Shown: positions 17,108 through 32,146 of the stretch, in pieces
Position numbering within the stretch: position 1 is the first letter of the stretch
Layout: every line of letters begins with the position of its first letter
Source of the DNA: a virus
Length of the DNA: 35,992 nucleotides
Reading direction: 5' to 3' (one strand)
IMG/VR virus record: IMGVR_UViG_3300006030_000052
Coordinates: 1-35,992 of that record
Position numbers and translations under genes: made by a program
The notes under the pieces: model-generated
Told to the model about the DNA's origin: nothing
Seen by the model: the letters and a program-made list of their open reading frames with translations, nothing else
The model's database searches: none

Positions 17108-17115
17108 TATTTATT
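17108..17115 (-). promoter_or_regulatory. Late-promoter-like AATAAATA
   Basis: The motif is 29 nt upstream of the ATG at 17078, a good distance for a late promoter of the fibre operon. It overlaps the end of the preceding 95-aa gene. Confidence 0.55.
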
Positions 17116-17398
17116 CGTAATAGACTTCAAGATCTTCTGGTAAATCTTTCGGATTTTCTATTTCTACATTGAAAAAACAGGGATGTACTTCTTCTTCGAT
17201 TAGATACGATGAGGATTTGTAGATGTCTTCTGGTTCAAATGTACGATTTTTATCTGCTTCTCTACATAAGTCTTGGTCGTATAAGTGACCATCAGGTAGT
17301 TCATCGAAGGTAAATGGAAAACTATTGATAAAGTACATTTTCACAATCATACTGCCGTCATTGTACCAGCAGTATGCGGAGTCGATACGATAAGACAT
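17111..17398 (-). CDS. Hypothetical protein, 95 aa
   Basis: It begins MSYRIDSAYCWYNDGSMIVK, has a strand-rich first half and an acidic end (KDLPEDLEVYYE). It sits between the tRNA cluster and the giant fibre gene and has its own late-type motif 22 nt upstream. No domain recognised. Confidence 0.6.
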   Translation of the reverse strand: MSYRIDSAYCWYNDGSMIVKMYFINSFPFTFDELPDGHLYDQDLCREADKNRTFEPEDIYKSSSYLIEEEVHPCFFNVEIENPKDLPEDLEVYYE

Positions 17399-17431: not shown

Positions 17432-17774
17432 TGTCGGTAGGGAGACTTGAACTCCCACGGGCAATGCCCAACAGATTTTCGTACCACTATAGTTTTCACT
17501 ACCCTTTCGGTTTGTGGTCTGGACTATACCTTCACCATACCTTTCGGTTTAGGTGTTCCCCGTCTAGTCTCTACACGTTTTGCATTTTCTAGATAATTTC
17601 AACCCTCTCTAGAAGCACATTGGGTAGCCGTTGTCTTTCCAACTGTCTTGCAACTTCGCTCGGTATTGCCATTTTACAGGTTTCACCGAATTTGAGGAAT
17701 TACACTCATAAAGTTTCCTAAATGAGGCTCAATTTTCATAAGTCTGGTGTGTCTACCGATTCCACCATACCGAC
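17432..17774 (-). tRNA. tRNA-Leu(UAA) interrupted by a group I intron
   Basis: Exon 1 is 17774-17740 and exon 2 is 17479-17432, giving a spliced tRNA of 83 nt. The acceptor GUCGGUA pairs fully with UACCGAC, with A73 as discriminator. The D arm is GUG/CAC with loop GG. The anticodon loop after splicing is C-U-UAA-A-A. The long variable arm is GGGC/GCCC and the T arm GGGAG/CUCCC with loop UUCAAGU. Only pair 27-43 is mismatched. CCA is not encoded. The class II shape and UAA anticodon identify Leu. The intron lies exactly between U34 and A35, the site of the cyanobacterial and chloroplast intron. It is probably transcribed from the sigma70 promoter at 18022-18050. Confidence 0.92.
17480..17739 (-). 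ncRNA. Group I intron in tRNA-Leu(UAA), 260 nt
   Basis: A self-splicing ribozyme candidate without an ORF. The 5' exon ends CUU, which can pair with GAG near the intron start (UUGAGCC), giving the required U·G at the splice site. The last intron base is G (17480). Core elements on the minus strand: Q-like AAAAUGGCAAUACCGAGC (17675-17658), R-like GUGUAGAGACUAGACGGGG (17576-17558) and S-like AAGGUAUAGUCC (17532-17521). GACUA of R pairs with UAGUC of S to form P7. GAAA-capped hairpins lie between S and the 3' end and in the P8 region. By site and size it belongs with the IC3 tRNA-Leu introns. Confidence 0.9.
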
Positions 17775-17813: not shown

Positions 17814-17887
17814 TGGTCGCAGTGGGAATCTAATCTACCTTCGGCGATTTATGGAACCGCTGAATTCGAACAGATTACTATACGACC
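17814..17887 (-). tRNA. Degenerate tRNA-like gene, CAU anticodon position
   Basis: It is 74 nt, the normal tRNA length. The acceptor GGUCGUA/UGCGACC pairs over all 7 positions (one G·U), with A73. An anticodon stem GCGGU/AUCGC carries loop UCCAUAA, so the anticodon would be CAU (Met, or Ile after modification), but position 33 is C instead of U. The T arm has two A·C mismatches and loop UUAGAUU. The D arm keeps only half of its pairs and lacks GG. Either a decaying tRNA-Met/Ile gene or a divergent functional one; decay is more likely. Confidence 0.45.
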
Positions 17888-17917: not shown

Positions 17918-17919
17918 AA

Positions 17920-18007
17920 TAGTCGCCCAGGGTATCGAACCCTGCCAAAGGCCCTAATCTGGGGCAAAGGGTTTATAAGACCCCTCTGAACACCTGTTCT
18001 GACGACC
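17920..18007 (-). tRNA. Atypical class II tRNA, anticodon loop CUUAUAA
   Basis: It is 88 nt. The acceptor GGUCGUC/GGCGACU pairs throughout (two G·U), with A73. The anticodon stem is GGGGU/ACCCU with loop CUUAUAA, giving anticodon UAU (codon AUA, Ile). The long variable arm is GCCC/GGGC and the T arm a perfect CAGGG/CCCUG with loop UUCGAUA. The D arm is short: GAAC/GUUC with only a 4-nt loop. A long variable arm does not fit tRNA-Ile; class II tRNAs are Leu, Ser or Tyr. One base change at position 36 would give Leu(UAA). Identity is therefore uncertain. First tRNA after the promoter. Confidence 0.7.
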
Positions 18008-18021
18008 ATAAACCCAAATCA

Positions 18022-31219: not shown

Positions 31220-32146
31220 TCAGTCATCATTCGCTAGTGCCTGGAAGTATGAGAGAGGAGAATCTTCATCTGAGTCATCATAAGAAGACTTAGTTGATTT
31301 CAGATTGTTTAGTTGACCTCGGAGATCATCATCAAGATCCTTCACAGAACCACGATAATCATCTTCATCTTCTACTTCTTCATCTACACGACGAGAATTT
31401 GTATTTCCTTTTCCGAGAACATAATCAAGTCGTTTCTTCAGTTCATCATAGGACTTAAATTGATCTGGCGCAATGAATTCCTGAAGAGAATATTGTTTCT
31501 TCCAGATTGCTTCGAGTTCATCGTCATCATCAAGAAGAGCACCTTGCTTCATGAATTTAGAGGAATCATAGTTACGATAACCTGCGACATTTTTTGCCAT
31601 CAGTTTAAAGTTGGCCCCATTCCAGAAATCAAATGGATCGATGGATTCATCATCTTCCATTTCTGGTTGCATTGCCTCCATGATTTTATCAAAAATCTTT
31701 TTGCCATACTTATAAAGGAAGGTTTTGCCTTCATTTTCGGGATTTGCAGGATCTTTTACAACATAGATGTTGCTAATATAGGAAAGTTTACGCTTTTGCT
31801 TACGAGCTTGTTCTTTACCTGCTTCGGTTCCATTATTCCAAAGAGTAGAATTATACTCACCTAGAGGATCCTTTTGATTAATGGTAGTAAGACTGTTCTC
31901 AATATACCAACCATTAGGACCTTGGAACGCATGAGAATACAATTTAACAAAAGGTAGATCTTCACCATCTGGAGCGGGAAGAAAACGAATGACTGCGGCA
32001 CCATTACCTGCCTTATCACAAGTTAAACTCCAGAAGCGTTCATCACTAGAACCGCTGTTTGAACTATTCATTTTTTCGACTTCTTTCACCAGTTTTTCGG
32101 TGAGAGCGCCAAGTTTGGATTGTTTTTTAAGATTTGCGAAACTCAT
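31220..32146 (-). CDS. 32: Single-stranded DNA-binding protein gp32, 308 aa
   Basis: It covers ssDNA during replication and recombination and contacts the gp59 loader, the polymerase and UvsY. It shows the gp32 layout: a basic N-terminal part (MSFANLKKQSKLGALTEKLV), a central OB region (RFWSLTCDKAGNGAAVIRFL, YKYGKKIFDKIMEAMQPEME, PFDFWNGANFKLMAKNVAGY) and an acidic C-terminal tail (residues 255-308). The chain has a single Cys, so the zinc site of T4 gp32 is absent, as I recall for cyanophage homologues. Confidence 0.92.
   Translation of the reverse strand: MSFANLKKQSKLGALTEKLVKEVEKMNSSNSGSSDERFWSLTCDKAGNGAAVIRFLPAPDGEDLPFVKLYSHAFQGPNGWYIENSLTTINQKDPLGEYNSTLWNNGTEAGKEQARKQKRKLSYISNIYVVKDPANPENEGKTFLYKYGKKIFDKIMEAMQPEMEDDESIDPFDFWNGANFKLMAKNVAGYRNYDSSKFMKQGALLDDDDELEAIWKKQYSLQEFIAPDQFKSYDELKKRLDYVLGKGNTNSRRVDEEVEDEDDYRGSVKDLDDDLRGQLNNLKSTKSSYDDSDEDSPLSYFQALANDD

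Follow-up and report, generated by a model that had tools for sequence, protein, structure and literature searches.

The 35,992-nt stretch of viral DNA analysed here (IMG/VR record IMGVR_UViG_3300006030_000052, positions 1 to 35,992; hereafter the window) carries on its minus strand a tRNA-Leu(UAA) gene (17774-17432) that is split between U34 and A35 of the anticodon by a 260-nt group I intron, an arrangement confirmed by several lines of evidence and far beyond chance. With introns at this same site in at least 103 other viral contigs, the element appears to be one that moves between viruses rather than a gene of the host. We consider it very probable that this is an intron of the self-splicing type in the phage's own tRNA-Leu(UAA), one of a lineage that circulates among phages and re-enters the same locus by homing or recombination. 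The transcribed intron would fold, an external guanosine would cut after U34, and the joining of U34 to A35 would then yield, in infected cells, a tRNA that could be charged and would read UUA.

The 5' exon (17740-17774, minus strand; 35 nt, tRNA positions 1-34) ends in C32 U33 U34, the intron (17480-17739, minus strand) ends in G, and the 3' exon (17432-17479, minus strand; 48 nt) starts with A35 and pairs with the 5' exon through the acceptor stem GUCGGUA/UACCGAC. A covariance-model search, the check proposed in the initial annotation of this DNA, places Rfam family RF00028 (Intron_gpI) at 17749-17498 on the minus strand with 56.8 bits and an E value of 5e-12 (cmscan; gathering cut-off 50); the group I intron recognized in that annotation, with its coordinates, length, splice site and core elements, is borne out in every particular. 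On the raw window ARAGORN makes no call for the interrupted tRNA-Leu, but once the intron is removed in silico it calls a tRNA-Leu with anticodon taa, the class II cloverleaf that had been predicted for the spliced product, and this product folds better than shuffled sequences, with a z of -2.87.

The gene lies in a small tRNA cluster with tRNA-Ile(UAU) (17919-18008, minus strand; ARAGORN), and the order Ile-Met-Leu is conserved in most syntenic loci. Where most relatives have tRNA-Met(CAU), the window has a degenerate-looking tRNA-Met-like sequence (17814-17887, minus strand) with a CAU loop and the acceptor stem GGUCGUA/UGCGACC, on which ARAGORN makes no call. This degenerate look, judged by eye, and a C-U mismatch at pair 27-43, the one flaw seen by eye in the spliced tRNA, might suggest that the tRNA-Leu is a pseudogene holding a dead insertion that no longer splices. 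We regard that reading as highly improbable: the intron core is complete, the splice-site pairs are conserved, and the window acceptor stem has changed on both sides relative to its relatives with its pairing kept. Among the 22 larger open reading frames of the window, which has 35% G+C, UUA accounts for 188 of 617 leucine codons (30%), so a spliced tRNA-Leu(UAA) would be useful to these genes, and on general reasoning selection for efficient splicing would follow.

To describe the intron's structure we aligned 59 phage introns of tRNA-Leu type, each with 9 nt of exon, and named helices P1-P9 and the P3/P7 pseudoknot from the window. The 49 named pairs are formed in 94.7% of alignment cells, a share that drops to 79.9% on shuffling and to 30-42% once partners are slid. 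The measure is inflated by taking the pairing structure from one of the aligned sequences; for that reason the covariation score is the better guide, and it reaches 0.429, compared with 0.146 in shuffles and at most 0.089 with slid partners. Changes on both sides occur in 27 of the 49 pairs. P1 (17728-17742, minus strand) joins exon C32 U33 U34 and intron A1 to intron U9 G10 A11 G12, with U34.G10 marking the 5' splice site, and its first three pairs, this U.G included, are invariant in 59 of 59 introns. The window intron has the U.G pair at the 5' splice site and the terminal G expected of a group I intron, the terminal G being, in every accepted splice, a condition of the search.

Compensatory change across the 59 introns is strong in the core. 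P3, formed by UUCCUC (17694-17699) and GGGGAA (17556-17561), both on the minus strand, is paired throughout and has changed on both sides in six of six pairs; P7, the guanosine-binding helix, formed by GACUA (the R element, 17565-17569) and UAGUC (the S element, 17522-17526), also on the minus strand, is likewise 100% paired, with one compensatory pair. P3-P8, P4-P6 and the P7 pseudoknot are all present with covariation. Alignment and pairwise comparison place a 62-nt extension of P6a within the P6-P6a region (17576-17660, minus strand); among the introns compared, only two others, L114 and L199, have it. The window intron holds no open reading frame of 60 amino acids on either strand, and no homing endonuclease gene lies inside it.

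How widely such introns occur was examined by two pattern scans of IMG/VR, with in-silico splicing and ARAGORN applied to every match because the first pattern had also matched the variable arms of uninterrupted tRNA-Leu genes. At least 104 viral records, the window included, have a tRNA-Leu(UAA) interrupted at U34/A35. Among GenBank phages the intron was found in a single isolate, Agrobacterium phage Atu_ph07 (278 nt), and in the 735-kb huge phage LR756501 (205 nt); by eye, exons of the same pattern flank an HNH-containing insert in the 595-kb huge phage LR756511. In several other clades genes for hallmark phage proteins, namely portal, DNA polymerase or primase/helicase, lie beside the intron. 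That the window is a metagenomic contig leaves room for an assembly artefact or for cellular DNA placed in a viral bin, but the chance of either is negligible: its neighbouring genes match Synechococcus phage S-SRM01 over ~15 kb, in pieces, and many independent contigs, together with the isolate Atu_ph07, show the same arrangement. Since S-SRM01 is the closest isolate, the host is probably a freshwater cyanobacterium.

A single scan of bacterial genomes found at least 85 further loci with tRNA-Leu(UAA) interrupted at U34/A35, in Cyanobacteriota, Pseudomonadota (alpha-, beta- and gammaproteobacteria), Bacteroidota, Acidobacteriota and Planctomycetota. The initial annotation had described the insertion point as the cyanobacterial site; it is indeed the position used in cyanobacteria and plastids, but it is not specific to them, being occupied in proteobacteria, Bacteroidota, Acidobacteriota and Planctomycetota as well.

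The gene next to the interrupted tRNA, which encodes a 95-residue protein of unknown function (17111-17398, minus strand), allowed the same locus to be located in other cyanophages. It was found in 80 further viral loci, and of 130 loci with this neighbour, earlier ones included, 33 have the intron, 91 have an intact tRNA-Leu(UAA), as S-SRM01 does, and six have neither. On the tree of the neighbour gene this distribution requires 18 gains or losses, at least 11 of them forced by supported branches. Filled and empty sites with identical exons exist among close relatives: L016 has exons that match the intact tRNA-Leu of L414 and L423 at 100% identity, and L061 has exons that match the intact gene of L363 equally well, with the same neighbour gene in each case; for the window itself the corresponding value is 93%. 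As exons often differ too, some of the switches could reflect exchange of the whole tRNA gene.

Absence outnumbers presence at this locus, and an intron could be lost precisely through recombination with an intact allele, so that repeated loss might be read into the same pattern. We think this unlikely to be the main explanation, because the window intron is 94-98% identical to those of phages in which the neighbour gene is only 63-76% identical to the window's. The window and L114, L016 and L118 illustrate the disparity, with introns 97-98% and neighbour genes 65-75% identical, and the window has its 62-nt extension in common with L114. Some phages, moreover, have this intron in a class I tRNA with a UAA anticodon, the exons there being only 62% similar to those of the window's class II gene. 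Repeated entry of a phage-borne intron into uninterrupted tRNA-Leu genes at one locus would account for such disparities, homing or recombination being its probable route.

In some lineages this mobility is probably driven by an endonuclease encoded within the intron. Several long introns (~690-730 nt) contain an HNH protein with the motifs SIRQVL, GGNY, LELDHINGN, LCPNCHAQT and TYRGKN. Sense copies of its gene occur in L130, L147, L183 and, in divergent form, L126 and L164; antisense copies occur in L036, L138, L154, L165 and in gammaproteobacterial introns. Pfam matches are to HNH_3/HNH, with scores near the cut-offs, and 241 records attest to a wide distribution of the family in phages. In cyanophages the interval that separates tRNA-Leu from the neighbour gene can contain a related free-standing HNH gene, at intact and interrupted tRNA-Leu alike; this gene is not significantly commoner at the interrupted ones (8 of 30, against 11 of 80 intact; p 0.16). 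The pattern fits homing aided by an endonuclease acting in cis or from a neighbouring gene, with these proteins as candidate cutting enzymes. There being no HNH gene inside the window intron or within ~1.3 kb of it, the window copy would rely on an endonuclease encoded elsewhere or on plain recombination.

Antisense HNH genes were also seen in gammaproteobacterial and related chromosomal tRNA-Leu(UAA) introns of ~690-706 nt (L225, L227, L229, L256, L264, L290, L318 and L325). A free-standing HNH gene of a different type lies between tRNA-Ile and tRNA-Met in S-SRM01 (L332, 32122-32541, minus strand), and the tRNA clusters of S-SRM01-like phages hold several kinds of HNH genes.

Intron phylogeny sets the window's lineage among phages. 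Among the matches listed in pairwise comparison, its 50 nearest introns are all viral. A tree built from 189 introns puts the window's inside an all-phage group of 27 (support 99) and unites 15 cyanobacterial introns in a single clade (100). A further tree took in tRNA-fMet introns of cyanobacteria as well as tRNA-Leu(UAA) introns of a second cyanobacterial type (L498 and L499), both trees covering viral and bacterial introns. Here the all-phage group that contains the window numbers 18 introns (99/74). The window lies outside the clade (100/100) made up of the classical cyanobacterial tRNA-Leu introns, and these together with the fMet introns lie within a clade (97/98) that also excludes the window. 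Within the sample, the window's lineage occurs in phages only. When a single clade of the window's group and the classical cyanobacterial introns was put to an AU test with an earlier data set, it was not rejected (p 0.35), and AU tests settled neither the deep relation to cyanobacterial introns nor phage monophyly; we therefore claim only that the window intron is not nested within the cyanobacterial clades and leave a deep sister relation aside. The two introns of the second cyanobacterial type group with gammaproteobacterial and acidobacterial introns, a placement consistent with polyphyly of the introns at the tRNA-Leu(UAA) site in cyanobacteria.

These trees bear on the suggestion of the initial annotation that the whole interrupted gene had come, ready-made, from a host. 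A cyanobacterial source would explain the insertion site and the Rfam family, both common to cyanobacteria and the window, and would be compatible with the joint clade left standing by the first AU test; yet comparison of intron and exons with cyanobacterial ones, along the lines proposed at the time, turned out against it. The window is excluded from the clade of classical cyanobacterial introns, and the second cyanobacterial type sits with gammaproteobacterial and acidobacterial ones. Candidate hosts were sampled as the 35 of 292 cyanobacterial genomes that encode the alpha-cyanobacterial carboxysome protein CsoS2: none of these 35 picocyanobacterial genomes has an RF00028 match over the cut-off (one weak match reaches 22.7 bits), and the anticodon arm is uninterrupted in 26. 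Four cyanobacterial genomes outside this set score 71-96 bits for the intron with the same model. Compared with intact tRNA-Leu genes of phages, the window exons reach 93% identity; compared with picocyanobacterial tRNA-Leu, 78%. On intron trees, host genomes and exon identity together, we rejected capture from a cyanobacterial host as the best reading and consider it very unlikely. Scanning viral contigs for the core of the classical cyanobacterial intron produced 11 loci, and not one splices to a tRNA-Leu.

That phage protein genes can contain group I introns is well established, and cyanobacteria and plastids supply, in their tRNA-Leu(UAA) intron, a textbook example of an ancient, nearly immobile intron. 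That intron resembles the window intron in its gene, its position at U34/A35, its P1 with a U.G pair and its P3-P9 core, but forms a separate clade, and the sampled copies, at 219-297 nt, are too short to hold an HNH-type endonuclease gene of the kind seen here. Introns of Proteobacteria, Bacteroidota, Acidobacteriota and Planctomycetota occupy the same site, and those of gammaproteobacteria have an HNH gene of this type in antisense; all of them differ from the window's in lying on contigs of bacterial genome assemblies and in other clades of the tree. Cyanobacterial tRNA-fMet introns are also inserted in the anticodon loop, and parts of them match a phage intron at ~70-80% identity, but they interrupt another tRNA, in a CAU loop, and belong to a different clade. 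S-SRM01 psbA, T4 td and a crAss-like helicase gene likewise have phage group I introns, frequently accompanied by HNH or GIY-YIG endonucleases, yet unlike the window's these introns interrupt protein genes. A parallel for the free-standing HNH genes is F-CphI, a free-standing endonuclease that acts with the neighbouring psbA intron of S-PM2: there, as at the tRNA-Leu loci, an endonuclease gene lies beside an interrupted or intact target, although at these loci it is an HNH family beside tRNA-Leu and cutting is putative. In the psbA region of S-SRM01 (L338, 206500-211500) we observed three group I matches, two of them over the Rfam cut-off, and two endonuclease genes.

A 2014 review placed all phage introns then known in protein genes, despite the many phage tRNA genes (PMC3984707). 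Bacterial tRNA-Leu(UAA) introns have been described, including an interrupted tRNA-Leu in sulfur bacteria (PMC4853749). The open literature, to which our search extended (subscription papers lay outside its scope), yielded no report of phage tRNA introns after that review, and papers on crAss-like, Jug, Bastillevirinae and jumbo phages place introns in protein or unspecified genes only. The publication on Atu_ph07 lists 33 tRNAs found by tRNAscan-SE and does not mention introns (PMC6102473). We could not find the tRNA-Leu(UAA) intron described for phages, in keeping with the remark in the initial annotation that no such intron was known from a cyanophage tRNA; the kind is apparently undescribed there, with known counterparts in bacterial tRNA genes and in phage protein genes. 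That ARAGORN missed the window's tRNA-Leu and that the analysis of Atu_ph07 mentions no intron suggests that phage tRNA sets are undercounted. Related and plainly mobile phage introns at one site, with identical empty sites and internal or nearby HNH genes, offer a testable system of intron gain and loss.

Two further observations concern other settings of such sequences. Class I tRNAs with a UAA anticodon occur in cyanophages and other phages (L152, L190, L201, L128, L149, L139 and L151, and L332 at 31944-32016), and several of them hold an intron of the same kind as the window's. Pelagibacter phage HTVC120P has, in its capsid gene region (MH598807.1, 19653-19807), an intron-like stretch with 72-74% identity to the core of the phage tRNA-Leu intron.
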